From Anadara kagoshimensis (taxonomy: Eukaryota; Mollusca; Bivalvia; Arcoida; Arcidae), in contig CM037867.1 of NCBI GenBank assembly GCA_021292105.1, forward strand, positions 12,085,683-12,149,682: a stretch of 64,000 nucleotides of DNA. The letters run 5' to 3'. The position numbers were made by a program, and so were the translations under genes. The notes below the pieces were generated by a model. The model had not been told where the DNA came from and did not search any database. It was given only the letters and a program-made list of their open reading frames with translations. Shown here one piece after another: positions 17,201-60,394 of the stretch; position 1 is the stretch's first letter, and each line of letters starts with the position of its first letter.

Positions 17201-20200
17201 TCAAATTAAAGATTCGCTCTAAACATAATGTACCTGTACATTTTCATACTGTATTGAATATCAGCGCATTAGTCAAGAAATGTAAGTCAAAATCAATAGA
17301 TTAAAACAAATTAAGTCTTCTTAACGATTTGTTACATATAAAACTTATAGATCTTAACCAGATAATCATGAATTATTGTTGTTGTAAATTCTACCAACAC
17401 AATGCATATCTATATAAAATGTAGTCCTTTGTTATTTCCAAATCAGTTGTAATGTCATAAAGGTACCTAAAATAGAAATATGAAATTTGCAACTGAAAAG
17501 GATGTACTTGTGTACTTGACAACAAACAACGTAACCAAGAACACCACACAATAGAAATGTGATAAAACAAGACGCTATAAATACAGTCAAACCTGTCTAT
17601 AAAGGCCAGCCAAGGGAACCAGTGAAATTTGCCTTTATGGGCAGGTGGCTTTTATATACAGGTTTAATAATATGAATAAAGAACAATTGGGATAAAATTG
17701 TATTGGCTTTTATAAGCAGGTGGCCTTTATATATAGGTGGTCTTTAAGGCAGGTTGGACTGTACATCAACAAAATCTTTATGCCAAGAAGATTCTGATTA
17801 TTTATTATCCTTAGAGCCAATAATTTGCCATAACTGTGCGATTCCATAACTGTGTCGGTTCACCAATTTTGTAACGAATTCACCAATTTTGTAACCAAAT
17901 AAAAACAATACTATTTATTTTATAAATAAATAAAAAGATTACATTCTACTATTTTAAATCAATTTTACTGAGTTATCCATTAGCATAAAAATAATACTAT
18001 TAGGTCTCTTCACCCATGCATATAAAACAAATATAGATAAATCCTACCCAGGTAATCAAAATCAATTATTCGATGAACTGTTACACGGAGAGCAATATCA
18101 AACTGATTCTATCATCAATAAAAACAGCCCAAAGGAATGAAATTTTGTTGTTTTAAATTTATTTACATGTAAATATAAACCAGAAATATCGAATTTTATT
18201 TAACTGTTCATGAAACATTCCATTCAGTTTTGAAATTGATTTTTCGTTGGTATGAAATGGAGCGATAAGTAAAATTTAAGGATAATCTGAACATTGAATT
18301 GGTAGTCACAGAAATAAACCTTGTCTGTACCATACGGACTGGTCCTTGTATCAAAAGAATTCATCAGCCTTTATTTAAAAAATGAAATTGAGTTTTTTGT
18401 TTTTCATGAGGTAATGAAGAGAATGAGAAATCCGCAAATTGAATGACAGACAAAGTCTTTCATGATTACTTTGCGGTCTCATTCTCTGCATCACCTCATG
18501 ACAAACAGAAAACTCAATTTCATTTCTTATATTTACAATTCATCGACAATTGACTGTTGCCTAAAATTAAAGTTGGTAAAATAATATACAATGTATCTTT
18601 TTGGCAGCTGGATGAACAAAATCGTGGGAACAGCAAGTTGACCTGAATCTTTGATGACTAGTGTCGCTGTTTTGCGGACAAAAAAGTAATCCCTTCAAAG
18701 TACTTAAACTAAGTAAGAAAAATGAATAAAACTAGATTTTGGCTAGTAATATTTTAATTATAATTTTATTGTAAAATGTAAACAAAAATACGTGTTACAA
18801 AACGCGTTACTTAATACAAGTACACATTATGTATTCATGCGCCATTGATAAAAAACGGGTCAACATTACGTCATCAAGTTCACGCGAATGCCCCGTTGCC
18901 TTCATGCACAGGTGAAGGCAATCAGTCGTTAAAACTTCATTGAAGGAGTGTTAATCAGATTATAAATATATAGGTGTATAATTCTTGACTGGGATGTAAA
19001 CAATTAATATTATCACGCCACTTTATCACTCTTTCCCATATGTTTATTAATGAAAAACCAATATACCGGTCCATGTTTAAATGATAATAAAACAAAAGAA
19101 AACTTTTGAATACAATAGAATGTAGTTAAGTAATGAACTTCTACAAAGGAAGTAAGACGGAGTGTCCGGGAAAGGAAACGTTGTAGACAGGTCAAATATA
19201 GTTAAAATCATGAACTTTTACAAGGAAAGTGAGGTAGGCTGTTTTGGAACAGTAATCGTCGCCGGATAAATTAGCTACATCCGTCACATGAATTACTGGA
19301 AGATCAAAACTATGGGATGTCAAATATATTATCGAGAATAGGCGTTAATTACATATTCTAACATGACCTGCGTTTTCTTCATATGAAACATAAAGAGAGC
19401 CAGCAGTGGTATAACAAACGATATACCCATCGCTATTCCGTTTTAATGACGTACTCCCTTGCTTATTTTATGACGTCATGTTATGTTCCGCGAACAATGG
19501 CTGTGACGTAATTTTCTTTCATAAAATTATTTATTTCAATGGAGGTAATCTCAACAGCCGAATTGTTTGAATGAACCGTTTTGCAAATAGATAGTAAATG
19601 TACTTCCGGAGAAAGAGTTCGCAGTGTTTATTTCAATCATTTTAATCTAAGTCATGTCAGATTATTTCTTAATTATACCAGTGTTAATTTCATAGTATTA
19701 GACGGCCATTTCCAAATACAATTACTCAATTGTAGTGCTTGGACCAAAATTGTAAACCTAAATTTCTTCAAGGGTTTGAACAAAATCCAAAGGACTAAAA
19801 TATATTTTAAAAAGTAAATATATTAATTTATGTCTAAATCAAAATCCAGAAGCAAAGTAAAACTTTGGAACTGACAAGTTTGGTTAGACATGTGAAGTTC
19901 CACCACGGAAGTGAATCCGGGTGTTCCGAAATAGTGGAAATTCCTGTTTATCTAGCTACACAAAGATCTTTAAAAATAAATGTATCGTGCATGAGGATGT
20001 ATATCTTAGATTTCTTAAAGTTTAACTAAATCCAATAATTCTTTTTTGTGTCTTCACATGAATTATTTAAAGACTTTGACTATCACGTTGATAAACACAA
20101 TTTGTAGTAGGTGTTTTTATGGAAATTACGATCTTGTTCCTGGATATAAACTTCAAACGTTTTAATTGATTTATATACATAAGTAGGTGTTTACAAGAAT

Positions 20201-23200
20201 CTCTCTGTAGACATGGTATTTCCCTCACCCTTTGTTATTCATGTGAGCTCTTAACAGAATGTGAAGTCACATTCCCGATACACGGTATACATACTTATTT
20301 TGGTCAACCTTTGGCATTATAAGATTGACTAGATAGAAATGTTAAAAGTATCATCTTAGCTGATCACTTACATGACATATTTATTATCCTACGCGATGTA
20401 GTTCTTTTTTCTCGTTGACAATTGTACTCAGCACGCATGATTTTGAACCATTACATGTGACGCGGTTGCAATTAAGTAATTGTATTATCTTACAATAAAA
20501 CAAACCAATCAATGTCTAATTTACAATTCCAAAGCAAAGTAAAATTTTTGACACTTGTTTATTGAGTTGAACATGTGAACTTTCAATATGGACATGGTAA
20601 CTGGGGCTTCTTAAGGGTAAATACATTCTGTTTAGCTGACTACACCTGCTAAGTGTAAAACTAAAATTGATATCAAAACGAACATACAATTAATACCATA
20701 CCCATGGTTTTTATCACACTTATCAACGATGATGAGACTTTGGACATTAAACTTTGAGGACCTTCATAAGCCTCCCAATATCCCTTGTTCAACAATTTAA
20801 CTATAAGTGGTTTCCTTCGTTGTATGAACGTTTTAAAGGGGAACAAACTCTATCATTATTACATATTATACCAGTTTTATATTTACAGCACTAGACGGTC
20901 GTTTCAGAATACAATTCCTCATTAGTAGTGCTTGGACCAAAATTATGAAACCAAAATTATTTTTAAGATGTTGAAAAGTACCAAATTAAGCTAAGGAAAT
21001 ATTTTGCAAGAGGGAGTATACCTTAGTTTTTGAGAAATTTCAAATTTTTACTTGCAGGAAATTTAGATAATTATAGTATATTTCATTAATGCTAAAACGT
21101 GTATGTGTGTACATAAAAATATATATTTCATCCAATTGAAATCTATTTGAACAGAAGACGCTCCACTTTCAAATCTGTCCCGTCTATTTTGTCAAATACT
21201 AAAAACTTAATCTTCATAAAGTACGATAAATCTTGTCGGATTTTGTGCAAGACATCTGATAGGTTGAATGTTGTTTTCAAAAGAAATACATGTTGTCTCC
21301 ATCTTGAAAAATATTATCCAAAGATCATATCAAATTGCAGATGGTATTGTATTTTCTAATAAGGTAAAATACAATTGGTTGTATGAAATATATGAAGTGT
21401 AATAGCCTCCTAGGATTGTACATTGTACTTGACCTTATACGGCAATACAACTTAATGTTATTTCCTCCTCGAGTATCTAGCCTTACTTCCCTGTTAAAAG
21501 GTCACGAAATTTTATTAATTTGTGCAAGATTTTACTCTCACTACTGGTGAGGGATTTTATTTCGAAACGGCCGTCTAGTGCTTCACAATTATCAAAAATT
21601 CCTTTGCTTTACGGATTAATTGTGTTTGATTCATATGTTTTAATATTTGTTCTTGCAAGACCACACAACGTATTGATCCGTTGGGGATAAAAAGCCGATA
21701 AATGCTCTACATTGAAGACATATTAAACTAGCTTCAATTTTCAGTACACGTAATTCTATTTCGTGTCGGCATTCAGGGTTAAATGAAACGTTTATTTCAT
21801 ACAGCGACATGTTTATAGAGTGAAATTCCTTTTTAAAACCATTTGTTTTTTGTTCATTTCAGTTAAATGTTATATTGCCATTCAAGTTTCCATATGATTA
21901 TATACGCAAGGTATTTTTATTTAATTTGCCAGTTTTTCAAAACTGTAAATTCTCACTGGCGCTTTAACCTAATTTTCCAGTAAACTAAAATTTGCAATTT
22001 TCAAAGTTTTACCTTTACTTTTAGGTTGTTATTTGCGGAAGTTTTCATATTTAACATTATTTGCGAGTTTTCAGAGTTTTAACTTTGTTTTGGTATTGTG
22101 ATTTGGACATGGAGCAGTAGATTCGTTAATCTCCTTATCTTACTAATTTTTTTCTTTTATCTCAAAGTCACTAAAACAACAAACATGTTTTAGAGGTAAA
22201 AATAGACTTAAGCAGTAGATGCTTCCCATCCCGCAGCTCCCAGCATCACTTCCCTAGCGGAAGTTTTCTAATTTAAGATTATTTGCAAGTTTTCAGAGTT
22301 TTAACTTTGCTTTAGTATTGTGATATGGACATGGAGGAGTAGGTTTGTTTTTAATCGTCGGCAAATAACCTTATTTTACTCAAGGACTACTTTTATCTCT
22401 TCCCATCCCAGAGCTCCCAGCATCACTTTCCTAGCGGAAGTTTTGGAATTTAACATTTATTGCGAGTTTTCCGTTTTAACTTTGTTTTGGTCCTGTGGTT
22501 TTTACATGGAGCAGTAAGATTGTTTTTAATGGTCAACACATATCCTTATCTTTAGTATCTTTAAACTACTGTTTTTATCTCTTAAGTCATTAAAACAACA
22601 ACCATGTTTTAGATGTAAAAAATCTAACAAACAAATAACTGATATTGAGCGACACAAAATCATTATAATCTGATGATCGATTTTACTTTTTCCAGATGTA
22701 CAAAAGAATGCTTTATGTATAATCTAGCTATGTAGGTGATGGCGCAGATTGTATATAGGTAAACAACATTGACCTGTCTGCTTGACCTTTGATTTAAATA
22801 TTCATTATGGACGAGTAAATTAAAGAAATAGGGATCACGCGTGTATATATTCGTCTAAACGATATGAACACTATTCGTGAACAATGTGTATATGTAATAA
22901 CTGCGAATCCTAACACTACCTATGTATTTGTTGGACCCTCCAATATGAATATTCCTAATGAAAGGTCAAACGGACAGGTCAATGTTGTTTGCCTACATCT
23001 AGGTGATGCATTGGATATTAATTTCTATTGTGACATGATACATAATCTGTGATGATTAATGCTCCTGATACCGTAACAATAGAAAACACGATAAAAGATT
23101 GGTTTCCAATATACACGTGTATTTCTAGTTCAGAAAATATTGAAATCTTGAAAATGTAGTGTGAAAGAATTTTCAATTTTAATCGACTAGTAGCTACGGT

Positions 23201-36600: not shown

Positions 36601-39593
36601 ATATACGTGTACATACAGTATCAAGTTTAACCTTAAATGTATACTGATCCCAATAGAAAGTTCGGAGCCCCCCCCCCAATAAAATTGTAACACAAACGTT
36701 TAAAAGAACTGCAATTTAAAATTGAGCCAAGTTTGATTGAATTATTAATGTTTTAAAAGAAATAAAAAACGTTTTAGTTACATTTTAAGTCTATCAGTCT
36801 TTATATACGCTTGTGCATCAATTTTAACGTGAAACTCCTAACGTTCCAATCGGACCAGTATGTTAGATTCGGTTATTAGACTGTATGATGTAAGTAAGAC
36901 AGAATATTTCATCCCTACAACTATCCTGTACCCAGTATACCATCATCTATCCTTACATATCAACTATATATAGCTCCTAATAAAAAAAAACATACTAATC
37001 CATGTCCTCCCAATCATAAATACGAAGCAAAGTAAAAACTTTGGAACTGGCATCTAAGGTTAGACACCTGAACTTCCACAAGGGAAGTGAGGCCGGGTGT
37101 TCCGGAAGGGTTAGCACAAAGGATATGTCAATTAAGGTCAAAATATAAGGTCAAATTTGACAAACTGAGCTGTACACTTTTATAGATAAACAACAGTGAC
37201 TTGTCCGCTTGATCTTAAATTTAAATACAGTCAACCCTGCCTTAAAACCACCTCTATATAAGGACCACTTACTTATAAAGCTTGTAGAATTTTATCCCAA
37301 ATGTTCTTTATTCATATGAATTAAACCTGTATATAAAGACCACCTGCCCATAAAGGGCATATTTACTCGTTCCCTTGGGTGGCCTATATAGACAGTTTTG
37401 ACTGTATTAGTAATTATTTAAATATAATTAAAATATCATTTAAATTATAGAGCAGTATAGAAAAGTAAAGAAAACACCGTTTTTATTTCGTCTAATCGTA
37501 GGAAACATGCATTTTTAACGTATGAATTGAGAACCCTAATGATACCGTATATTTGGTAAGCTTCTTAGAAATACATTGTTGGCTCGGGGATATAGCAAGT
37601 CTAAAACAGAAACAAACGCCAAAGTTTTATTGCCGTCATCACAATGGTGTTGATATGTACGATGCTTCTGAATCTAGAATTATCTTTGATATGTTTGACG
37701 CCCAGTAGTTCCTTTCATTCTCGATAAAACACGTGACGAGTATGCCTAACTAAACATGAGGCGCTTACTCTGCCGGTACACCCGGTTTCATTTCCCTGGT
37801 GACAGTTCACGTGTTTAACTTAATTTGCTACTCTTCAAAGTTTTTCTCTGTTATGGGATTGTGATTTCTAAAAAAACACGTATGTTTGGTTTTTTATTTA
37901 ATACTACATATTGTTTTGTATTACATACGTGTCAGGTGAAGCTAGCTTAACAGGAAGTCCTTACCCTGCCGGTACAACCGGCCTCGCTTCCCTGGTGTCA
38001 GTAAACGTATTTTACTTAATTTACCAGTTTTGAAAATTTGTACACTTATGGGATAGTGATTTGCACATGGAAACCAATGTTTGTTTTTGATTTGAAACTA
38101 TACACTGTATTACACACGTGTACCTAGATATGAAGGAGACACCCTTTCGGAGCACATGGCGTCATTTCCATGTTTGAAGTTTACGTTTTTAATTTAATTT
38201 ACCAGTCTTCAAACTCTGTTATGAAATTGTGATTTGGACATGAGTTTGTATGTTTGATTTTGATTTGTGATGGTCATACTATTTTAGGATCATTGCAGAT
38301 ATGAAGGAGGGATGCTAGTTGAAATAAACGATGTTACAGAAAACAATTTTCTGAAGAATTATTTAGGCCGTCTACATGAATCTAGTAAGATATTTTTCGT
38401 GTATTACGCTTCCTAGGTAAACCACTGCAGGAGCTCAGTTGGTAGAGTGCTCGCTCCGTAGGTGGAAGGTTGTGGGATCGATCCATTGTTTGGTCTAACC
38501 CAAGACTTGAAAGTGGGTAGTGACTGTACTTTTGTCAAGCTCTCGGCATTACCAAATGAAAGTCACGGTTTTTTCGGATAGGTTCTTAAAATAAACGAGG
38601 TCCCGTGTCATGATGGGCCTGGCATGCTTAAGAATCCTGCTGTATAATGCCAGCAGCACAACAAAGAGGCAAAAATTCTGCACCTTCGCCTAAAACTGGC
38701 AACATCTCGATATAAATGAACTATTTTTCAATAGAACGTTAAAAACCATTACTCAGATTCTTCCTAGGACAGGTCCTCACTTCCCTGGTGGTGGAATTTC
38801 GCATGTTGAACCCAACATAACTGGTCTTGTACTTAAATTTATAATCATCATCATGGCATTACATTTTGATAAAAACCGCATTTCTGAACCATCCTTTTTG
38901 TTATTCAATGTTACAAATAAATACATTTTTGAATCAGATATAAATGTTGCGGGTGTATCTAGCTAAACAAAAGTATAGCATCCGTTCAAACTGCCCTTGT
39001 AAAAATTCTTTTGTTTAACTTATTATGTCAGTTTTTAATGTTTATTCTTTAATTTTGTATTTTTTAAAGTTTTATCTTTGTTTTTGATATTGTGATTGTA
39101 ACAAGGACATGTGAATTTGTGATTCATTATAGAATAAATATATGTTTTTACAAAAACATAAAATAAAGTCTCTCCTTAAGTAGCAGAGTAGAGTATTTTA
39201 GTTCCATGTTCCTTTCACACAATTTTGATTACACACGTGGCTAGCTAAACAGCCGGCGCTGTGCTTGGAAGTTAACGTACCTAACCTAACTTAGTCCCAA
39301 AGTTTACTCTGTTTCTGGATTGTGATTCGGACATAGATTAGTATGCTTTTGATTTTTCAGACAGTTTTTGGATTGGTGGTACTGACATAGCCACTGAAGG
39401 CGAATGGAAATGGAGTGTGAGTGGCTATAGATTCGGATTTACAAACTGGGGTCCAGGGGAACCTAGCAATGCCGGTGGGTATCACCAGACAGAAGAATGT
39501 GCGGAACTTTATCACAATTTTAACTTTCAATGGAATGACGAAAACTGCGCCTTAAAGAAAAATAACTTCATATGCGAGATAGAGTATGTATAG
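33637..39593 (+). CDS. Secreted C-type lectin, four exons, complete
   Basis: Exons are 33637-33679, 36236-36333, 38288-38384 and 39361-39593, all with GT donors and AG acceptors; junction phases are 1, 0 and 1. The product is 156 residues. Residues 1-18 (MAMFHLLLMVFFIQVCAA) are a signal peptide, so it is secreted. The single C-type lectin-like domain has the six cysteines of the long form: C21-C32, C50-C151 and C126-C142 by family pairing. WIGG is at 83-86, an EPS motif at 113-115 where sugar-binding members have EPN or QPD, and WND at 137-139. The Ca2+/sugar site therefore looks largely present, with a non-standard specificity motif. In molluscs such proteins are commonly soluble immune or mucus lectins; that role is inference. 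Introns carry many mobile repeats but splice sites are clean. The gene is followed directly by hammerhead repeats. It shares exon layout with the partial lectin at 1-736. Confidence 0.9.
33690..33805 (+). repeat. Family 1 copy, sense, in lectin intron 1
   Basis: CCGGCCTCATTTTTCTGGTG, GAAGTTCATGTGTTTAACTA and TTTTTGTGATATGGACATAG mark it. It begins right after the exon 1 donor. Confidence 0.7.
33837..33876 (+). repeat. Poly-T / poly-G run
   Basis: A T-rich run passes into 14 consecutive G and then a G/A-rich segment. Low complexity; it yields spurious glycine- or proline-rich frames. Confidence 0.95.
34069..34118 (+). ncRNA. Hammerhead-type motif, degenerate
   Basis: GGTCCGAGCGCTA, CTAATGAG, a short stem II, then AAAAC and TTGTC. 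Core and stem I are changed. A Family 2 relic in lectin intron 1. Confidence 0.4.
35085..35625 (+). repeat. Degenerate tandem repeat, about four units
   Basis: Each unit has a form of GTCCGTCACAAAGTTTGTCC, GCGCTAGTTCTC, ACCAGTTCCGGTTCATTGAT and GAGTTATGGCCCTTT, spaced about 115-160 bp. Non-coding; located in lectin intron 1. Confidence 0.8.
35755..35950 (+). repeat. Family 1 copy, sense, near consensus
   Basis: GATTACACACGTGGCGGGTG, GCTAGCTAAACAGGAGGTGC, GGAGCACCCGGCCTCACTTC and CCTGTATGTTTGTTTTTGATT are present. There is a short ATCATG repeat near its end. It is one of the best-preserved copies. Confidence 0.9.
36359..36596. mobile_element. Family 5 palindromic MITE, copy 3
   Basis: The left arm CAACATTGACCTGCCCGCTT and right arm GAGCGGACAGGTCAGTGCTG are inverted repeats. 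It lies 25 bp after lectin exon 2. Confidence 0.7.
36985..37125 (-). repeat. Family 1 copy, antisense
   Basis: CATACTAATCCATGTCCTCC, GAACTTCCACAAGGGAAGTG and GGCCGGGTGTTCCGGAAGGG mark it; it is cut off after the last motif. Confidence 0.8.
37177..37225. mobile_element. Half of a Family 5 MITE
   Basis: AAACAACAGTGACTTGTCCG then CTTGATCTTAAATTTAAA is one arm only. It ends exactly where the Family 4 MITE begins, and no second arm was found nearby. Confidence 0.5.
37226..37406. mobile_element. Family 4 MITE, copy 3 (opposite orientation)
   Basis: 181 bp from TACAGTCAACCCTGCC to GACAGTTTTGACTGTA. The interior is the reverse complement of copies 1 and 2 (ACCTGTATATAAAGACCACC). Confidence 0.8.
37560..38270 (+). 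mobile_element. Fossil retroelement end with three tandem tail units
   Basis: 37,560-37,720 aligns to the RT-protein C-terminal fragment (GCCGTCATCACAATGG, TTTGACGCCC). Three Family 1 tails follow head to tail at about 37,728-37,900, 37,925-38,100 and 38,115-38,270, each with a GCACCCGG/ACAACCGG-like block, a TTTCCCTGG-like block and a GTGATTT...ATGTTTG end. The last unit ends about 20 bp before lectin exon 3. The copy is old and broken. Confidence 0.65.
38424..38740 (+). mobile_element. tRNA-derived SINE, copy 4
   Basis: A box (GAGCTCAGTTGGTAGAG), B box (GGGATCGATCC) and the full body, including GAAAGTGGGTAGTGACTG, CCGTGTCATGATGGGCC and CTGCACCTTCGCC. About 315 bp in lectin intron 3, starting about 40 bp after exon 3. 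Confidence 0.85.
38935..39115 (+). repeat. Family 1 copy, sense, diverged
   Basis: AAATGTTGCGGGTGTATCTA, GCTAAACAAAAGT and AACAAGGACATGTGAATTTG mark it. Confidence 0.55.
39225..39350 (+). repeat. Family 1 copy, sense, internally deleted
   Basis: GATTACACACGTGGCTAGCT, AACCTAACTTAGTCCCAAAG and GATTCGGACATAGATTAGTA mark it. It ends about 10 bp before lectin exon 4. Confidence 0.75.
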
Positions 39594-39792: not shown

Positions 39793-39808
39793 AACTTATT
39801 TTAATTTT
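39793..39808 (-). repeat. LINE target-site duplication, 3' side
   Basis: AACTTATTTTAATTTT, identical to 47,025-47,040. Part of the T run could belong to the element's A-rich tail. Confidence 0.85.
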
Positions 39809-39909
39809 TTTTTTATATTTATTTTTTTAATTCACATTCATCATATTTTAACAATACTCTAACATCTATACATATATAATACAATATAAACTTACATAAT
39901 GAATGTGTT

Positions 39910-39947
<38 letters not shown>

Positions 39948-40070
39948 AGTACTTTATTATAGTGACATGTGCATCAAATACAATAGTAAAGTATAATCAA
40001 TAACATAAAGTAGCACCCGGCCCAAAGGACCTGTAAGTCACTCAAACATATAAATCCATAGAACAATATT

Positions 40071-40115
<45 letters not shown>

Positions 40116-40221
40116 GAGAGAGAGAGTATTTACGTAAATATCACAATTGGTGGTTGAATAGTTTTAAAGTCATTCAGTACAATGTAACATTGATGTCCAG
40201 ACCTAATAAATAGATATAAAT
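39809..40221 (-). other. LINE 3' UTR with two GA microsatellites
   Basis: GA runs (plus strand) at 39,914-39,946 and 40,077-40,128 lie between the ORF2 stop and the A-rich tail. No other structure was seen. Confidence 0.8.
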
Positions 40222-43200
40222 TTAAGTTATTACAATATTGTGGAATTGTTGCCATTCTTTCATAAATTTTTCTAGATTATTTCTGCTTGTAGCGATATTT
40301 TTTTCAATATTGTACACATCAGCCAAAATATACTTAAATGAATCTATTGACAGGGATTTGCCAAGACATCTAGTTTTATAAATATAATATTTTATATGGA
40401 CTATAATCAAATTTTTTATTCTGTTATTTAAACTAAAGTCTCCTAATATAAAATGAAGTTTTGTAAAATCTAATAGTATGCTGTTTTGTAAAAACCAGGT
40501 ATCTAGTTCTTCTAAAAAATTTTGCACATATTCACATTCCCAGAAGAGATGTATAACAGTTTCATTACTTTGTTTACAAAAAGTACATTTTGGATCATTT
40601 CTTAAATTAATCTTAAACAAAAAGGCGTTAGTACCGATTATATTATTAACAATTCTGTATTGAAACCATTGCAGTTTTGTACTTGATGTTGTTGAAAAAA
40701 TTAATTTATAGATTTCTTTCCACGTTTCTGTATTTAAATCTTCAAAGATTTCTTGCCATTTTAACCTTGCGGTTGGTATCATATTATTTTGCTTCAAGAT
40801 TTTGTACATGTCTTTTGAACCTTTCTTACTGATAAAAAATACTTTTAAATTCACCGGAATAAATGGATTTTCAACTTTAGAAACAGGCGCTTGATTATTT
40901 TTTTTTCAACATACCTTTCACCGATGAAATTATACCATTAAAGTCTACAAAATTTATATTACAATTAAAACAATTGTTAAAACTTTTGAGGTCTAAAAAA
41001 TTTCCATCTATATCGAGTAAGTCGTTAACAAATTTAACACCTTTCTCGTATAATTTTCTAAAAAACATGGATTTATTCCCCTTTTTTATGTAACTATTGT
41101 ACCAAAGGAAGTTTTCAGAAGGTTGCTTGTAAGTTTTTAATGTGTGACATGTTTTAATTAACAATAACCATGCTTTAAAGACGTCAATCCAAAAATTGTT
41201 TTTTATCTTTTCAATATTTTCAGTTATAAAGTCCTCCCCAACACTAAGTAATTTGTGGATATCTATTTGAGAATTCAGAATTTCTTTCCAACTGCTTTCT
41301 TCATGTAGCAGCCTCCTTATCCAAGTAGTTTTAAGAGCATTTATATAAGAACTCAAATGAACCATTTTTAACCCTCCCTCTTCGTACTCTTTTATTAAAA
41401 CATCTCTTTTGACTCTACCAGTAGGACTATCCCATATGAAGTGATATAAAATTGTATTAAGTTCAGTAATAATTTTCTGGTTTGGATTTGGTAATGAAAT
41501 AAATAAATGGTTTAATTGTGAGATGAGGAGTGTTTTTATCACTGTGATTTTTCCAATCGGGGTGAGATTTCGTTTTTTCCATGACTTTATTAACATCCGT
41601 ACTGTATTTATTTTCTGTTCGAAGTTAATTTTGGTAATTTTATCTATATCTACATCAAATATAATACCAAGTAATGTAAAACGAGTATTGCCCCAGTGTA
41701 AATCATAGTCTATACATAGTTTCTCTTCACTGTATTTTTTATTTCCTATCCAAATAATTTGAGTTTTGTCATAATTTATTTTAAGACCCGAAATGTTTGC
41801 AAAAACATCAAGTTCGCATAAAGCTTGTCGTAACGAAAGTTCAGATCCGTCCAATATAAGACAAGTATCATCTGCAAATAGAGATATTTTAGATTCAGTA
41901 AGATTTGTTCTAATTCCTTTTATTTTCACATTATTTCGAATTTTTATTGCTAAAATCTCAACACATAGTAAAAAGATATATGGTGACAAAGGGTCCCCTT
42001 GTCTACAGCCTCTTTTAATTTGAAAGAAGTTTGTTAAATTCCCCCCTTGTGTAACTGCAGATTTAATATCTTTATAGAAACTAGAAATCCATTTTCTTAT
42101 AGAAATTCCAAAATTAAAAAGAGTTAATACTTTGTCTAAAAAGGACCAAGAGATTGAATCGAAAGCCTTTTCGAAGTCCACTAATAATAATAACCCAGGA
42201 ATATCATTGTATTCAGTATATTGCATTATATCGTATATTAGTCTAGTATTTTCTCCAATATATCTCCCTGGAATGAAACCCGTTTGTTCTTTACCAATTA
42301 TATTATTTAAAGTCGGTTTAATTCTGTTCGCTATAACCCCTGAGCCTATTTTATATACCGTATTAAGAAGAGTAATTGGGCGCCAATTTTTCAATAAGTG
42401 TTTAGATTTTCCTTCTTTTGGTATACATGTTATTATTCCCTCCCTTTGTGTTACTGAAAGTTGTCCATTTTTATACCCATAATTTAAAGATCGAATAATA
42501 AAGGGCCCAATGTCATTCCAAAATATTTTAAAAAATTCAACAGTAAAACCATCAGAGCCAGGACTTTTATCATTTTTCATATTCTTTAATGTATATAAAG
42601 CTTCTTTTTCAGTAATAACACCTTCTAAACGATCAGATTCGCTTTTGGTTAATTTTGAATAGTCACAATTGTTGAGATAGTCGTTTAAATCTACATCTAA
42701 AATATTACGGTTTTCAGAGTACAGATTACTATAAAAACTTTTGTTGGTTTTTCGCCCTCTGTTACCCATTTAAATCGCGATCGAACGATAGAACTTTTGA
42801 TTTTTTCTTTTCTGACATTCTCTAATTGTACCCGTTTACCCTCTAATATACCAAAGTTTTGATCATTTAAATTTTCTTCCAAGTATTTTATTTCATCCAT
42901 CAATGTTGTCTCTTGATTTTCTTTTTGTTTTTTTACATAACTCACGTATGAAATAGTTTTACCCCTGATTTCCATTAATAAAGTTTCTAAAAATAATTGA
43001 TCATTAATATTGAATTGAACGGAGTCAAGTGGTATTTTATCAATATTATCTAAATCATAGACTGGGATTGCATATTGTAATTTGATTTTACTTATTAATT
43101 CTTTTATTGTTTTAATGTATTGTAAGTCATATAATAAAGAATTGTTAAATTTCCACAATCCTCTTCCCCTAATAAATTCGTTCAACGTCATTTGTAATTG

Positions 43201-43894
43201 GACTAATGAATGATGATCTGAACGATAACCTGGTTTTATAAAAGCTTGAAATGTATCTGTCGATAAAGTTTCACTTAATATGAAGAAATCTAATCTCGCT
43301 TGTTTTAGAGGGTTTTTTCTTCTCAAGTATATCTTTTCAAATTTGGATTAAGCTCTCTAAATGCATCTATGCAATTATTTTCCTGAATAAAATCTAATAA
43401 TTTGTTTCTGGCATTTGGGTTATTTGTACTAATGTAATTGAATGAGTCTAAATCAGGGTCCAAGCAAAGATTAAAGTCACCACAGATAATAAAATTGTTA
43501 TCTCCAAATTCAGCAATTATTTCAAAGATATTGTTATAGAAAATCGGGTCATCTTTATTAGGACCATATAGGTTTACAAGAGTTATTTTTCTCTGCTCAA
43601 CAAAGATTTCGATTGCAATATAATTTCCATTTTTATCATGTGATTCTTTTAACAATTCAAATTCAAAATTATTTTTAAAAAGTATACAAACACCCTTGCA
43701 TTTGACCTAAATGAACTGAAAACACATTTATAACCCCATTCCTGTTCTATCGACGAATTAATTTCAAATGTGAAATGTGTATCTTGTAAACAATATAAGT
43801 TATAATCAAGTGAATTTAGATAGTGAAATACATCTCTTCGTTTAAGTTTGTCTCCCAGACCTTGGCAATTTAATGATAAAATTTTCAAAGTCAT
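40222..43894 (-). pseudogene. LINE ORF2: endonuclease and reverse transcriptase
   Basis: About 1,220 codons in total, in five successive open segments: 43,894-43,649; 43,655-43,323; 43,326-42,697; 42,769-40,895; 40,854-40,222. The first begins MTLKILSLNCQGLGDKLKRR and has CLQDTHF, the start of an endonuclease/exonuclease/phosphatase domain; the next has GDFN and the third SDHHSL, its catalytic motifs. The fourth, 624 residues, is the RT: GSDGFTVEFFKIFW, WRPITLLNTVYKI, DFEKAFDSISW, GCRQGDPLSPYIFL and SLFADDTCLIL. The last carries CTFCKQSNETVIHLFWEC, a zinc-knuckle typical of these LINEs. It would nick target DNA and copy the element RNA. The frame breaks could be real or sequence errors in A/T runs. 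Confidence 0.92.
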
Positions 43895-45508
43895 GGCGGC
43901 AGGGGTCTAATTTTCAAACCACCTATTAAAGTATTTACTATAATTGAAGGGATAGACAAGAAAGAAAGTGAGAAGGAAGAATGAGAGAAGAAAAATGTAG
44001 ACTGAGAGATTAACATGATAAAATAGTAAAGGGAGATAATTTGATAGAGAAAGAAGTGTGTCTTATGACGGGATATGATGGCAATATTCTCCAGTTTATT
44101 TTCCTAACTAAAAGTTATTTTGTACCGTGATATGATGGATTATTGATATAAAATATAAATCTATACACCTTAAATTTGAATACACATACAAAAACATGTA
44201 TTTGTACCATACATACTGTCATATACCACCTTCTGAACTCAATCATAAAATACACTAAAAAATGGTAATATGCCATTTTTTGAATGTCTTTCATGATTAA
44301 ATTAAAAAAATGGTATATGACAATACCTACCCAATGTACATCTATCACTATTGATTTCATACAAAAATACACATACATATACAAATATATTCATATAATA
44401 CGGGCACAAGAGAGTACTTAGTCAATATGTATAACAAAATAATAAACAAAAGTCGCGCGTTTATGAAAAATCGTAAGCCCATGTAACACAAATCGCGATT
44501 AGTCGCGAGTCTATGCAACAAAAATCGCGAGTTTATGAAACAAAACTCGCGTATCTCGACTTACATTTCGGTTCTCTCGAGGGCATATTAATATTTCTCT
44601 CAAAACTTGTACTTGTATTAAAAATGAATACCTATTGAACATAAAGTAACACAACATACACTTTAATTATAGTTCATCAGTGATATTGTGGCAGAGTTTA
44701 TAACACGGTCAAGTTTATTATACACAAATAGGTATCAATACCGTGTATTCGTATATTTGTCAACCCCCCATCTTAGGATATCAACATTATAAAAATCTTC
44801 CATATCCATAAACATGCCAAAATATCAATGACGGGCCATACCTATATACATATATATACAATCTTCTACTCATATACATGTGTACACATATAAATATATT
44901 CCAAAACTTTTTTTCAAGGTGAAGAAAAAAAGCAGATCCACATATGAGTTTTGTATATAGTGAGTGCAAACGAAGACTCGTTAGCGAACAAAACTTCGCT
45001 CCAACGCGAATTAGTTTTTCAAGCGAAAACTTGCGAAAAAGCGCATTGTCTGATATCGCGTATTTATATTGTAATGTTCCGACTCCAAATTTTCTATTAT
45101 TACAGTTCATTCAAAAAATTTAACTATGACAACATAATAGATTAAGGAAAAGGCTCAAGTATTCGCGCATTACCGCATACAGGAACCAATCTCATTGCAA
45201 ACATATCCAATATGTTCGCATAGAAAACATTTAAACGCGTATACATTCATATACGTACATGTGTCATATGCCAATCTTTGAATTTTTATACAATAAGAAA
45301 TTAAAAAATTAGCACGTTACACATGTAAACCGGGGCTCACCAGCACACTCATATATTTATACAAATAACATTCGATACATTAATAACTACCACCAAAACT
45401 GACAGTAAATAGCAAGATAATTATTATTTATACTAACATTTATAAATACCACAAATCAAAAACATATATACATATGGAGGAAGATATATAGTCTATGGAC
45501 ACATTGTG
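43895..45508 (-). other. LINE inter-ORF spacer, about 1.6 kb
   Basis: Much longer than the short or overlapping ORF1-ORF2 junctions usual in L1-type elements. It is AT-rich with TATA/TACA-rich tracts. At 44,450-44,575 the motif TCGCGA/TCGCGAGT recurs about four times with TTATG(A)AACAAAA between. No recognisable domain in any frame. It could contain a promoter or translation signal for ORF2, or an older insertion. Confidence 0.55.
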
Positions 45509-46339
45509 TCAGTCTAAAGTACTGTTCTTAAGAAACCTGATTTCCAACACGCTTATAGCTGTTTTTGCAGCGTTTTTGAAATGAGAGAACCTCTTATGTC
45601 CCAGCTTCTGACCTAGTGTTCGCGAAACAACCACAAGAACATTGTTGAAACCTTCGTCTTTCATACAGTTAATTATACTTCTACCTCCTCCATATTCCCC
45701 GTCATCGTCAATTCCGTCATAAATAGCACCCTTTTCGTCCGTAAATCTATAGGCCACAATGTTATGTGTCGAAGTTGCCACCGATGGTATCGTCATAAGT
45801 TCATTTAGTGCTTCCCTCACATCCTGGATCGATGATACGGACATAGCACGACCTACAATTACGTTGCCATTTTCGGCTAGAGTGTCACCAGATGCAAATT
45901 TGCGTCTATTTTTAATATAAAGGGCAGTTCTAAACACGTCATTTGCTTTAGGTAACTCAACCTTTTCGTGAAATACCGAACCACTACGTTTGTATACAAG
46001 TTTGTCTCCAAAAACTTTTGTTTCTACATTCTGTTTATTTAAGTTGCTCTGTATATCAAAAAGTCGTTTACGTTTTTCGCGGACCGATTCCGGATATTGT
46101 GGGTTAATACGGATTTTTGAGCCATTCATTTTTAAGATTTTTGTTTTGCTCAAGATAAGCTCTTTATCAGCATAGTCGTGTAATCTCGCTATGACTACCC
46201 GGGGGAATTTACTGACATTCGAGGACGGTGGTCCTGATCTATGTATAGTATCTATACGTATAGACTTTTCAATCTTTAATTCTTCTACCAATACTTTACT
46301 TAATTTCTCTCTTAAATCTTCTCTGTCTGTTTCAGTCAT
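45509..46339 (-). CDS. LINE ORF1, C-terminal part with IMPACT/UPF0029-like domain
   Basis: 276 residues from the first methionine. Residues 1-125 look like an L1 ORF1p RNA-binding region: IDTIHRSGPP, FPRVVIARLHDYADKELIL and SKIRINPQYPESVREKRKRL are the RRM-like and C-terminal-domain hallmarks. Residues about 155-265 read as the IMPACT N-terminal / YigZ domain: THNIVAYRF, DGIDDDGEYGGGR, NNVLVVVSR and LGHKRFSHFKNAAKTAI, in the order and spacing of animal IMPACT (THNIYAYR, DDGE, GG, NVMVVVSR, LGPDRFKH). In IMPACT this domain is linked to translational control through GCN1; in a LINE its role is unknown. It lies in one open frame with the RRM region, so the fusion is visible directly. The N-terminal half of ORF1 is in another frame just upstream. 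Confidence 0.88.
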   Translation of the reverse strand: MTETDREDLREKLSKVLVEELKIEKSIRIDTIHRSGPPSSNVSKFPRVVIARLHDYADKELILSKTKILKMNGSKIRINPQYPESVREKRKRLFDIQSNLNKQNVETKVFGDKLVYKRSGSVFHEKVELPKANDVFRTALYIKNRRKFASGDTLAENGNVIVGRAMSVSSIQDVREALNELMTIPSVATSTHNIVAYRFTDEKGAIYDGIDDDGEYGGGRSIINCMKDEGFNNVLVVVSRTLGQKLGHKRFSHFKNAAKTAISVLEIRFLKNSTLD

Positions 46340-46877
46340 ACCTGTTATAACTATATATCTTCATACTTCTTCCTTGTAAATCTATAACTTGTCTTTGCTG
46401 TAAATCTATCTTTTGTTCTAATCTAGCTATGTAGCTTCTGAGAAGTTGAAGTTCTGAATTCATTCTTTTGTTTTCTTCTGTTAATGTTACAATGTCACAT
46501 GCATGGTTGTTACTTTCTTGTACTATAGAGTCCAGTGTTTCTCTCGAGCTTGTGTGTTCTTTATCTATTTTTTCTATTTTTGTTTCTAATGTTGATAGTT
46601 TTGTGTCTTGGTTATTTACTCTATCTACCACATTGTCTAAAGTGTTCTTTATATGAGAAATACCACTAAGAATTTCTTGAATTACAGTATTATCGGGTAG
46701 AGTCATATTAATGTTACCTGTATGCTCAGTGTTAATACCTGTACTGGCCATGTTCGTATTATTATAAGTGTGATCGATGTCTTTAATATCAAGAGAACTA
46801 CTCACTCGATCCTTTGTTGAAAATTTTCTGTCTGTTTTTCCTGAATTTTCTCTTTTCCTCTTACTTGATCTACCCAT
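46332..46877 (-). CDS. LINE ORF1, N-terminal coiled-coil part
   Basis: 181 residues. Residues 1-30 are basic and polar (MGRSSKRKRENSGKTDRKFS), a possible nuclear or RNA-binding tail. From about residue 65 to 165 a coiled coil is evident (IKNTLDNVVDRVNNQDTKLS, then LETKIEKIDKE and LLRSYIARLEQKIDLQQRQV), as in L1 ORF1p, which trimerises through it. It ends DLQGRSMKIYSYNRYD and a stop, overlapping the start of the downstream segment by 8 bp in a different frame. The GRSMK motif is where the RRM region normally begins, so the two segments are one ORF1 with a frame change, real or a sequence error. Confidence 0.85.
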   Translation of the reverse strand: MGRSSKRKRENSGKTDRKFSTKDRVSSSLDIKDIDHTYNNTNMASTGINTEHTGNINMTLPDNTVIQEILSGISHIKNTLDNVVDRVNNQDTKLSTLETKIEKIDKEHTSSRETLDSIVQESNNHACDIVTLTEENKRMNSELQLLRSYIARLEQKIDLQQRQVIDLQGRSMKIYSYNRYD

Positions 46878-47024
46878 CTGTTACAATCATTGCATTCACT
46901 GTTCTTTTATGTCCATTTTGGTACAATTTTCATCTATGAAGCCTACCGTAAAACTGGAGAATTTTGTTATTTTTTTACCCCGATTGAAACATGACCATCT
47001 ATGTGTACAGTCACGTGACACCCC

Positions 47025-47040
47025 AACTTATTTTAATTTT
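47025..47040 (-). repeat. LINE target-site duplication, 5' side
   Basis: AACTTATTTTAATTTT, identical to 39,793-39,808. Confidence 0.85.
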
Positions 47041-47042
47041 AA

Positions 47043-47094
47043 AGCACTAGACGTCTGGTTCGAAATAAAATTCCTCGTTAGTAATGTTCTGACC
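47043..47094 (-). ncRNA. Hammerhead-type motif right of the LINE, degenerate
   Basis: Minus strand CTAACGAG, stem-loop II, CGAAC, CAGACGTC, TAGTGCT. The stem I 3' strand is intact, the core is changed. Confidence 0.45.
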
Positions 47095-47182
47095 AAAAAT
47101 ATAGAAATCGGAATATTTTTTTTAAATAGTGATATGAGAAAATAAAAGAACCAAAATAACATTATGCCAGTTTAAATTTTAC

Positions 47183-47229
47183 AACACTAGACGTTTCGGA
47201 ATACAGTTCCTCATCAGTAGTGCATGGAT
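47183..47229 (-). ncRNA. Hammerhead motif, exact core, short stem III
   Basis: Minus strand: GCACTA, CTGATGA exact, GGAACTGTATTCC hairpin, GAAAC, then GTC directly. Stem III bases present in other copies are missing, so the fold would lack stem III. Confidence 0.5.
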
Positions 47230-47405
47230 CAAAATTATGAAACCAAAATTCTTTTTTTCCAAGATGTTGAAAAGAGACCCAAAGGACTAAAATATATTTT
47301 ACTTTTAGCTAAGTAAATACTTTGCATGACGGAAGTATATTATAATTTTTGAGGAATGTTTTACGAAATCCACCTAAGACAATACTTTGACCTTGTTAAT
47401 TTTAC

Positions 47406-47453
47406 AGCACTAGACGACTGTTTCGGGATAAAATTTCTCAAAAGTAGTACTTG
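47406..47453 (-). ncRNA. Hammerhead-type motif, degenerate
   Basis: Minus strand: GTACTA, CTTTTGAG (core lost), CGAAAC, AGTCGTC, TAGTGCT. Last unit of the array. Confidence 0.45.
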
Positions 47454-47589
47454 AAAAACTGTGAAAATAGTTTATCTAATTAATAAAAAGGAGAAAAAAT
47501 GGCTACGTTTTTTTCGAGTAATCTATCTACAGACTAAAATTATTGAAATCCACTGTAATTTAAAATAAGTGTTTTTGTCACTTAATCGA

Positions 47590-47650
47590 TAATTTTTTTC
47601 TTTGCTTCTGGATTGTGATTTGGACATGGATAAGTATGTTTGTTTTTTAT
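47590..47650 (+). repeat. Family 1 end fragment, sense
   Basis: TTTGCTTCTGGATTGTGATT then TGGACATGGATAAGTATG: only the distal third of a tail. Confidence 0.7.
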
Positions 47651-53288: not shown

Positions 53289-54248
53289 TTATTTCAACTG
53301 ATCTTTTCGTGCCCAAGATTCCCAGGTAAACTTGTACTGGTATGTCATAATATGCGTTCGTGCTAAAAGTTCTTGGATTTTACAATATCTAGATACTGCA
53401 TTTTGTAAACCAGTTAGCCATATATGGGTACCAAATTGAACATGTTTGAAGTGATTTATCAGCGTTGAGGAAATAAGCGCTTCTACCACATCAAATTCAC
53501 ATCCCTCACAATTCACCGTGATTAAATCTATATCATAAAAACCAATCCCTATGTTGATAAAAAAGTTCGTAGCGTTAACAGTTTTTAACAGTGTGCCACC
53601 ATTTTCCTTCTTCTCCCGAAACACGGATGTTCCTTCGCCTTTAATTTCCACTTGAAATTCCCCATTTTCTTTTGCAAGTCCGATCTGATAAAGGACAACT
53701 TCCTTATTCGTTTCAAACATTTGGACTAGTTTTTTATAATAAACTTCAACAGGTTCTAGTATTACATAGAGCCTCGGTTTATAATTTCTGATCATTTCTT
53801 TGGCATCTATACCAATATTCCCGCCGATATCCAAGATAATACTCTTATTATTTAAGTATTTATGATGGCTGTGTCGCACAAATTGTGTATTTCCTGTCCA
53901 GAATTTACCATAGCCCTGTTTATAATCTTCTGGTTGATTTTTGATACATATATCAACTCTGTCCTGTTCTGTTTTGTTAAGATCGGTCGACAAAGGTTTT
54001 ATTCTTGTCAACATACCAGCATTTAACCCATTCATTGGTTTCGCCTTGTCTGCAAACAATAATTTTGGGTCAAAAGTTTTTAAACTTTCGTGCAGTTTTC
54101 CGTGATCTTCAAACATCTTAGGTTTTTTATGAAGATAATTTTTATGTACAAAGATTTCCGTCTCTATGATTCCTTCTTTGGATAGAAGCCATAATATCAA
54201 TGGTATGATTCCAACAATAACAAGAAGATAATTTATCCGACCTCTCAT
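53289..54248 (-). CDS. FkbM-type methyltransferase, type II membrane protein, copy 1
   Basis: 319 residues in one exon. Residues about 8-22 (LLVIVGIIPLILWLL) are a signal anchor, so the enzyme domain probably faces the Golgi/ER lumen. The SAM-binding motif LDIGGNIG is at 139-146, an acidic residue in LEPVE at 165, and ITVNCEGCEFDVVEAL at about 243-258, where FkbM proteins have a D(V)EG(A/C)E motif. The family transfers methyl groups to O or N atoms of sugars and small molecules; the substrate here is unknown. A polypyrimidine tract and AG end at 54,275, 26 bases before the ATG, so an upstream 5' UTR exon is likely. AATAAA overlaps the stop region. A paralog in the same direction lies at 59,187-60,047. 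Compared with it, this copy has about 32 extra residues between the anchor and the GLNAGMLTRI segment. Confidence 0.9.
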   Translation of the reverse strand: MRGRINYLLVIVGIIPLILWLLSKEGIIETEIFVHKNYLHKKPKMFEDHGKLHESLKTFDPKLLFADKAKPMNGLNAGMLTRIKPLSTDLNKTEQDRVDICIKNQPEDYKQGYGKFWTGNTQFVRHSHHKYLNNKSIILDIGGNIGIDAKEMIRNYKPRLYVILEPVEVYYKKLVQMFETNKEVVLYQIGLAKENGEFQVEIKGEGTSVFREKKENGGTLLKTVNATNFFINIGIGFYDIDLITVNCEGCEFDVVEALISSTLINHFKHVQFGTHIWLTGLQNAVSRYCKIQELLARTHIMTYQYKFTWESWARKDQLK

Positions 54249-54354
54249 TTTAGTAACGCAGCGGAACCAATTTTCTGAGAGGAAAAGAACAAAGAAAATA
54301 ATTAAATACTGAAAAACAAATAAAAATACAAAAAATTAATACAATGATAGATAT

Positions 54355-55925: not shown

Positions 55926-55977
55926 AGCGCTAGACGGCCGTTTCGGAATACAAGCCCTCATCAGTAGTGCTTGGACC
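55926..55977 (-). ncRNA. Type I hammerhead ribozyme motif, best copy
   Basis: Minus strand in order: GGTCCAAGCACTA, CTGATGA (exact core), GGGCTTGTATTCC (stem-loop II, G-C pairs at its base, partly mismatched above), GAA, ACGGCCGT, C (predicted cleavage after GTC), TAGCGCT. Stem I is AGCACTA/TAGCGCT with one mismatch. Stem III, ACGGCCGT, is self-complementary; alone it allows only three pairs with a two-base loop, but two molecules could pair over eight. That matches known small animal hammerheads which work as dimers, such as newt satellite RNA. The enclosing unit (about 55,905-56,050) carries TTATACCAGTTTTATATTTA before and GGACCAAAATATATTT after, as in the other Family 2 copies. Confidence 0.75.
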
Positions 55978-59186: not shown

Positions 59187-60047
59187 TTATTTTGATTGAT
59201 CTTTTCGTGCCCATGTTTCCCAGGTAAATTTGTACTGGTATGTCATAAAATGCGTTCGCGCTAAAAGTTCTTGGATTTTACAATATCTAGATACTGCATT
59301 TTTTAGACCTGGTAACCCGATATGAGTAGCAAATTGAACATGTTTGAAGTGATTTATCAGCGTTGAGGAAGTGAGAGCTTCTAGCACATCAAATTCACAA
59401 CCCTCACAATTCACCGTGATTAAATCTATATCATAAAAGCCAAGTCCTATGTTGATAAAAAAGTTTGTAGCGTTAACAGTTTTTAACGGTACGCCACCTT
59501 TACCCTTCTTTTTAAGAAAAACCGATGTTGCACCGCCTTTAATTTCCACATTGAATTCCCCATTTTCTTTTGCAAGTCCAATCTGATACAAAATAACCTC
59601 TTTGTTGTTTTCAAACATATTGACAAGTTTTTTGAAATAAACTTCAACAGATTCTAGTATTATATATAGTTTTGGGTTATAAGCCTTGAACATTGCTTCG
59701 GCATCTCTCCCTATATTCCCACCAACATCCAACATAATACTTTTATTATTCAAGTACTTATGATGTGTATGACGCACAAATTGGGTATCTCCGGTCCAGA
59801 ATTTCCCATGTCCCTCTTTAAAATCTTTTGACTGATTTTTTATACATTTATCAGCGTTATCCTGTTCTGCTTTGTCAAGATCGGTGGACACAGGTTGTAT
59901 TCTTGTCAACATCCCGGTATTTAGACCTTTTAAAGTTGTTGAAATGATTTTATTTCCAATAATACCTTTACTGTGGCAGTGCAAAAATAACAACGTTATA
60001 CATCCAGCAATGACAGCAATGGCGACATAAGGAAACCAACCCCTCAT
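59187..60047 (-). CDS. FkbM-type methyltransferase, type II membrane protein, copy 2
   Basis: 286 residues from ATG 60,047. A longer open frame begins at 60,176, but this start is preferred: it aligns with the MRG start of copy 1, and a polypyrimidine tract plus AG ends at 60,075, 27 bases upstream, nearly as in copy 1. Residues about 5-22 (FPYVAIAVIAGCITLLFL) are a signal anchor. The SAM motif LDVGGNIG is at 106-113 and ITVNCEGCEFDVLEAL near 210-225. The C-terminal 240 residues are very like copy 1, ending WARKDQSK. The linker after the anchor is about 32 residues shorter. Stop codon and AATAAA overlap (AAATAAATT). The substrate is unknown. Shared downstream sequence shows that the pair arose by tandem duplication. 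Confidence 0.9.
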   Translation of the reverse strand: MRGWFPYVAIAVIAGCITLLFLHCHSKGIIGNKIISTTLKGLNTGMLTRIQPVSTDLDKAEQDNADKCIKNQSKDFKEGHGKFWTGDTQFVRHTHHKYLNNKSIMLDVGGNIGRDAEAMFKAYNPKLYIILESVEVYFKKLVNMFENNKEVILYQIGLAKENGEFNVEIKGGATSVFLKKKGKGGVPLKTVNATNFFINIGLGFYDIDLITVNCEGCEFDVLEALTSSTLINHFKHVQFATHIGLPGLKNAVSRYCKIQELLARTHFMTYQYKFTWETWARKDQSK

Positions 60048-60174
60048 TTCTGCAGCACAGTTGAACAATGTGGTCTGGAAAAGAAAACAAACAATGTTGC
60101 TTAATATGAATACAATCAAAAAGAAAATGTTGAAATAACATTCAAAATACAAAGCAATAACTCTGAAAAATGGC

Positions 60175-60394
60175 AAGTTTTGTAAATTTCCACCAGGTAA
60201 ATCCCGTCCTTTCGGAAGGGTTAATATCTCCTAGTTCAGCTAGGTATACCCGCCAAATATTTTTCTTTGGTAAATAGCAGTTTTGCTTTGCATAATACAT
60301 CTCGATTTGATTTGCTAGCGTGTTTTGTGAGATTTTCTTATTTGAAAGCGATTTGATACCAATTATTTGAAATCAAAAACATACCAATCCATGT
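60175..60394 (-). repeat. Family 1: one antisense unit and the start of a second
   Basis: 60,175-60,255 has AAATTTCCACCAGGTAAATC, CCTTTCGGAAGGGTTAATAT and TACCCGCCA. A second unit begins near 60,370 (ATCAAAAACATACCAATCCA) and is interrupted at 60,394 by the 3.5-kb element; it resumes at 63,933. Confidence 0.7.

Follow-up and report, generated by a model that had tools for sequence, protein, structure and literature searches.

The minus strand of the stretch analysed here (the window: 64,000 nucleotides of Anadara kagoshimensis contig CM037867.1, within which all positions are counted) carries a LINE whose ORF1 is fused in frame to a PF01205 (UPF0029) domain of the IMPACT/YigZ kind. We regard as well supported the conclusion that the element is a member of the L1 superfamily (an assignment by sequence comparison that spans the L1 and Tx1 clades) with this domain joined to its ORF1; a profile score more than twice the curated cut-off, a predicted ORF1p fold upstream of the domain and the surrounding LINE all bear out the original prediction of such a fusion. 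Our full explanation is that a LINE ORF1 gained the PF01205 domain, that the element has carried it since, and that through the domain the ribonucleoprotein particle (RNP) acquires a surface for contact with RNA or ribosomes; taken as a whole, we give it slightly better than an even chance of being right.

The fused frame and its C-terminal domain

The minus-strand frame at 46360-45509 is open for 283 codons, and from an internal ATG at 46339 it runs for 276 codons to the stop codon (45509..45511, minus strand), reproducing the coordinates and strand first proposed. A Pfam profile search of the 276-residue translation, the check suggested along with the original prediction, was significant for PF01205 (E 2.1e-16, 60.3 bits, residues 162-262), and the C-terminal 145 residues, searched alone, covered positions 6-107 of the 107 in the profile and scored 62.3 bits (E 4.8e-17; curated cut-off 27 bits). 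Converted by hand from residues 31-131 of that 145-residue piece, the domain, corresponding to the ancient domain of IMPACT, occupies 45554..45856 (minus strand).

When PDB sequences were searched to E 10, 17 matched the domain and a single one did so significantly: 6bqi (E 6.6e-8), named 'Protein IMPACT homolog', which, to judge by that name and by a length of 258, we take to be yeast Yih1. The remaining 16 lie at E 0.35 or worse, with the bacterial-type 2cve (E 0.36) standing beside chance matches to FtsZ; the YigZ equivalog model TIGR00257 was not reached (19.6 bits against a cut-off of 167.95). On these sequence scores, and because 6bqi so clearly outranks 2cve while TIGR00257 stays below its cut-off, the domain appears closer to eukaryotic IMPACT, represented in the comparison by the one sequence 6bqi, than to YigZ.

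A pairwise alignment with the 6bqi domain gives 29% identity, and the motifs DDDGE and NV.VVV.R are common to both. Among 19 columns that are invariant across 6bqi and three prokaryotic homologs, the LINE domain agrees at 12 (H, A, DDGE, VV, R and three further G) and has lost the other seven, and its glycine loops are shorter by one or two residues in the alignments. Its profile score (62 bits) compares with 110.9 for the 6bqi fragment and 121-143 for the three prokaryotic homologs. Taken together, the lost columns, short loops and low score suggest that the domain may be decaying. The seven lost columns and the low score also suit the idea that the captured domain is a passenger, tolerated as a C-terminal tail and of no use to the element, but the H, A, DDGE and VV.R motifs have been kept and the 145-codon segment has stayed open, as did 0 of 20,000 mononucleotide shuffles, an observation that says little about selection if the insertion is young; on balance we think a mere passenger unlikely. 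Modelling the whole frame with AlphaFold from its single sequence gave a structure (mean pLDDT 43.6, and about 32-51 by block over the PF01205 domain) that was discarded as too poor, and a 138-residue model of the preceding region was taken instead.

ORF1 upstream of the domain

The region preceding the domain (45947..46360, minus strand) is assigned as RRM and CTD from its predicted fold, whose best match is human LINE-1 ORF1p. The 138-residue single-sequence AlphaFold model has a mean pLDDT of 65.4, with block values of 74-87 in the CTD (residues 91-130), and the ten best of its 344 Foldseek matches at E up to 10 are all chains of human LINE-1 ORF1p (E 8.1e-4 to 6.4e-3, one of them below 0.001; probability 1.00; identity 15-18%). 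Low TM-scores to ORF1p (0.35-0.39 by query length) mean that the placement of the two subdomains relative to each other is poorly predicted, and it is the ranking of the matches that carries weight. The model thus predicts an ORF1 with L1-type RRM and CTD, as was originally read from the letters, and this reading stands at the level of fold; it found no counterpart at the level of sequence, where neither Pfam nor PDB, both searched to E 10, returned a match to this half of the protein.

The start at 46339 that had been given to ORF1 has to be abandoned: a coiled-coil-like part lies upstream in another frame (46877-46335), separated from the RRM-CTD/IMPACT frame by a frameshift near 46350. This N-terminal part (46335..46877, minus strand) starts with an ATG at 46877 and a basic stretch, followed by a leucine/isoleucine run of heptad-like spacing (a simple heptad count without a control). 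Among the 25 best of the 31 Pfam families that it matched, all are below cut-off and many are coiled-coil families.

ORF2, spacer and 3' UTR

ORF2 (43894-40222) lies in five pieces separated by four frameshifts. Its N-terminal endonuclease-like region (43326..43894, minus strand) is spread over two frames and identified from matches to Exo_endo_phos families below their cut-offs: the second piece reaches 23.8 bits for Exo_endo_phos (cut-off 24.5) and 23.5 bits for Exo_endo_phos_2 (cut-off 27.4), and no Pfam family was found for the first piece (85 amino acids) or for the piece at 43347-42697, such that in this frameshift-broken region one of three pieces has a marginal match. The reverse transcriptase (40898..42769, minus strand; RVT_1 E 3.2e-36) matched ten sequences in total, among them the LINE-1 ORF2 protein (8sxt, E 3.1e-62) and an R2 protein (E 2.1e-24), and by these comparisons it can be assigned to the L1 type. 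The C-terminal part, with a zinc-binding domain (zf-RVT E 1.5e-10, 42 bits against 27.5) and the stop codon, is located at 40222..40905 (minus strand), and a 3' UTR with GA/CT microsatellites follows, as read from the sequence, at 39815..40221 (minus strand).

ORF1 and ORF2 are separated by a 1.6-kb spacer (43895..45508, minus strand) that is T-rich on the sense strand and in which no open reading frame longer than 107 codons was found; like the flanking duplications, it had gone unmentioned in the original prediction. As a guess, this spacer could be 3' sequence of the donor of the domain; it may belong to the captured block, or be an older insertion nested in the element. It also contains a short CGCGAGTTTATG-like array (about 44445-44552) and, at 44214-44325 and 45256-45327, two imperfect inverted repeats.

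Boundaries and surroundings of the insertion

The whole insertion measures 7,216 bp (39809..47024, minus strand), as delimited by flanking duplications and by alignments of the joined flanks. Its sense strand starts at 47024 with GGGGTGTCACGTGAC and finishes in an A-rich tail that adjoins the 3'-end copy of the target-site duplication; the boundary there, at 39809, is uncertain by a few T. The duplication is AACTTATTTTAATTTT at 39793..39808, identical over 16 of 16 bases to the 5'-end copy at 47025..47040; as a control for chance, 200 mononucleotide shuffles of both regions gave a longest match of 13 bases. The flanks also share a 15-base word that derives from the flanking repeat itself. When the flanks were joined into an empty site, four alignments crossed the junction, all from other copies of the flanking repeat within the window, near 20859, 21601, 28157 and 55898; they extend only 1-10 bases to the left of the duplication (the first bases of the repeat unit), the remainder lying to the right.

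These observations support, modestly but consistently, the insertion of all 7,216 bp into the flanking repeat; the boundary evidence is good rather than overwhelming, because the reach to the left is only 1-10 bases and the flanks, being repeat copies, have words of up to 15 bases in common. Since 16-bp duplications bracket the element and the joined flanks align across the empty site, it is most likely that the unit, IMPACT domain included, jumped as one piece, and very probable that the fusion travelled with the element.

Across the seven frame pieces no stop codon interrupts 1,744 codons (overlaps counted twice), and this copy contains at least five frameshifts, one of the frame changes in ORF2 coinciding with an A9 run. 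In view of the frameshifts the copy may be dead; five frameshifts and zero stops fit either a young copy or indels of the assembly.

One copy of a dispersed repeat seems to have been the target of the LINE insertion. This repeat occurs on both strands, with a copy at 55927-55970 and related ones near 19672, 20865, 21540, 28068, 34078, 39611, 47033, 47172, 47396 and 55105. In a search of 231 bases, the minus strand of 55927-55970 matches the type I hammerhead ribozyme family with 21.7 bits (E 0.0045), short of the gathering score of 34; Rfam gave no match in the whole window at gathering scores, nor did the repeat copies at 46900-47600 yield one when E was allowed up to 1. From animals, retrozymes that carry type I hammerheads are already known (PMC7229834). 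Elsewhere in the neighbourhood, a stretch coding for a C-type lectin (39360-39593, plus strand; Lectin_C E 4.3e-10) lies about 215 bases from the 3' end of the LINE. Two minus-strand open reading frames at 53289-54335 and 59187-60230 (348 and 347 amino acids) look alike by eye and are possibly a duplicate pair; their matches to FkbM methyltransferase fall below the cut-off (13.5 and 18 bits against 22.7).

Origin and age of the putative graft

A segmentation of the element by composition, blind to its genes, kept four cuts, at 45535 (the end of ORF1), 45988, 43676 and 40220, none of which was matched in any of 60 block shuffles; other cuts that were tried were not kept. The cut at 45988 falls inside the CTD, 44 codons ahead of the start of the PF01205 match. 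On the sense strand the proportion of A declines from 0.46 in the coiled-coil part to 0.40 in the RRM-CTD region and 0.32 in the IMPACT part (GC 0.41), after which the T-rich spacer begins. With the codon choice of ORF2, the amino acids of the IMPACT part would give an expected GC at third codon positions (GC3) of 0.253, and the observed value is 0.366 (P 0.0012, 5,000 draws); because GC3 is also somewhat raised in the RRM-CTD region (0.290 against 0.225 expected, P 0.042), the rise is not unique to the IMPACT domain, and in the coiled-coil part GC3 is not raised (P 0.45). The change of composition near the join is in keeping with foreign sequence at the 3' end of ORF1.

On a rival reading, the domain belongs to no LINE lineage. 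This copy, or its immediate source, could have gained an IMPACT-like sequence by chance, for example through an IMPACT retrocopy that landed in the element or through template switching during reverse transcription, and for this speak both the single copy so far known and a composition unlike that of the remaining ORF1, which would suit a foreign piece of recent arrival. Against it, the join is in frame and at the natural C-terminus of ORF1, and the traces of a recent landing are missing in the stretches compared: around the domain there is no A/T run of at least nine bases, such runs within the element being confined to its 3' end and the one A9 in ORF2; no word of at least 10 bases is shared between 45890-46030, before the domain, and 43890-45520; and no word of 9 bases is shared between 45400-45560 and 43850-44150. 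A score of 62 bits where 6bqi, the IMPACT reference of the comparison, reaches 111 would likewise hardly be expected of a fresh host retrocopy. We hold a one-off chimera to be improbable, while still giving it some weight. The idea that the IMPACT piece, or the spacer, was inserted into an existing element at a later time was set aside as not supported by the shared words and A/T runs, at the lengths and between the borders compared.

Since its divergence (62 bits, seven of 19 columns lost) exceeds what would be expected of a fresh host retrocopy, the domain has probably either resided for some time in a fast-evolving element or lost constraint. As to the date of the graft, composition, which suggests a foreign piece, and divergence, which suggests an old one, point in different directions.

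Other copies and earlier descriptions

The fused ORF1 is known from one copy, and from a single copy it is unproven that the fusion became fixed in a family of LINEs. In two collections that hold no eukaryotic genomes, the fused protein had no confirmed relative among 13 pattern matches in viral_contigs and 71 in genome_contigs, and the reverse transcriptase had none among three pattern matches in viral_contigs. The motif DGEYGGG did not occur in viral_contigs; the looser DDDGExGxG occurred in at least 120 stretches there and, with an arginine-like next codon, in at least 118 of genome_contigs, and seven protein pieces of the element, compared with those 238 stretches by tblastn, found nothing at E 0.01. 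With the domain and the 6bqi fragment aligned as a query, 141 pattern matches came up, none of them a confirmed relative. The silence of viral_contigs says little, because LINEs with the motif NWRPI[ST]LLN are scarce there: two stretches contain it, one of which marginally matches the C-terminus of ORF2 (E 0.078).

No fusion of PF01205 with a LINE ORF1 was found among the literature matches listed, a scope that leaves bioRxiv, most subscription papers, Repbase and Dfam outside; a term search for UPF0029 gave no occurrence in PMC11203168, PMC10294476 or PMC9115989. Should other copies turn up without the domain, the case would shrink to that of a single chimera.

Possible function of the domain

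By the mechanism we favour, an IMPACT-type coding sequence, without its RWD part, would have been joined to the 3' end of ORF1, so that the ORF1 product would consist of coiled coil, RRM and CTD followed by a C-terminal ancient domain. The source element would already have carried the domain, which would then have travelled along in transposition. Within the ORF1 oligomer it might add an RNA- or ribosome-contacting surface to the LINE RNP, working like the extra ORF1 modules of other LINEs (PHD, esterase, zinc knuckle, helicase) and not as an IMPACT-like inhibitor of GCN2. The YigZ fold resembles ribosomal protein S5 and domain IV of EF-G, and it is chiefly because of this likeness that we favour contact with RNA or ribosomes; taken by itself, such a role is possible but somewhat doubtful. 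It is ranked above a capture of GCN1 because no RWD match was found: in Pfam searches to E 10 the RWD domain was found in neither the RRM nor the IMPACT piece, nor was it among the 25 best of 31 families matched by the coiled-coil piece (those 25 extending to E 0.13).

The original prediction had also envisaged action through GCN1, or a blunted eIF2-alpha stress response, and in the light of the missing RWD match in the ORF1 pieces this proposal is weak. As a decoy for the stress pathway, the domain would bind GCN1 or ribosomes as IMPACT does and sustain translation of LINE RNA under eIF2-alpha kinases, and the PF01205 domain that it shares with IMPACT/Yih1 speaks in its favour. In the passages of PMC4503747 and PMC7140605 that bear on this point, Yih1 is described as competing with Gcn2 for Gcn1; it is the RWD domain that, overexpressed alone, strongly impairs growth under starvation, and substitutions in RWD helix 3 that reduce Gcn1 binding, but for the ancient domain the function is described as unknown, its invariant loops clustering on one side. 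With the Gcn1-binding part apparently lacking in the LINE protein, a decoy of this kind seems very unlikely.

A broader proposal is that an L1-type LINE lineage co-opted a host domain linked to translation, such that ORF1p would dock the RNP on ribosomes or on reported partners of Yih1 (GCN1, actin, a cell-cycle kinase) and tie retrotransposition to the state of translation, stress or the cell cycle. We consider this co-option a long way from probable; if true, it would offer a portable system for finding binding partners of the ancient domain. In any case, an element that keeps the ancient domain without RWD is a way to test what that domain does.

Comparison with known systems

The element resembles other L1-superfamily LINEs (LINE-1 ORF1p and ORF2p) in the coiled-coil-like part, RRM and CTD of ORF1, in the reverse transcriptase and C-terminal zinc-binding domain of ORF2 (the endonuclease match being marginal here), and in its flanking duplication and A-rich 3' end; it differs from them by the PF01205 domain after the CTD and by the 1.6-kb spacer between ORF1 and ORF2. 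With IMPACT/Yih1, which combines RWD and ancient domains, it shares the ancient domain (PF01205, with 6bqi as best match), but the LINE protein has no RWD match, is set in a retrotransposon ORF1 and has shortened glycine loops.

Shuffling of domains in LINE ORF1s is already known, and a domain of IMPACT type would be a novel addition to the modules involved. Jockey-superfamily ORF1s with PHD or esterase modules are described in part of the text of PMC4120745, where 448 elements were typed; Table 1 of that paper, devoted to ORF1 domains of Jockey-superfamily elements, lists RRM, zinc knuckles, PHD, esterase, coiled coil, zinc finger/leucine zipper and L1-type trimer modules, and PF01205 is absent from it. 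Virus-like RNA helicases are reported in PMC5563155 from the ORF1 of Jockey and the ORF2 of TRAS elements. The ORF1s with PHD, esterase or helicase are like ours in carrying a shuffled-in domain and differ in which domain it is and, for those of PMC4120745 (Jockey), in superfamily. Retrotransposons that captured DNA methyltransferases, as presented in PMC5890265, are comparable in having a host-type regulatory domain within their coding sequence; there, however, the domain is another one, the hosts are dinoflagellates and charophytes, and methylation activity has been shown.
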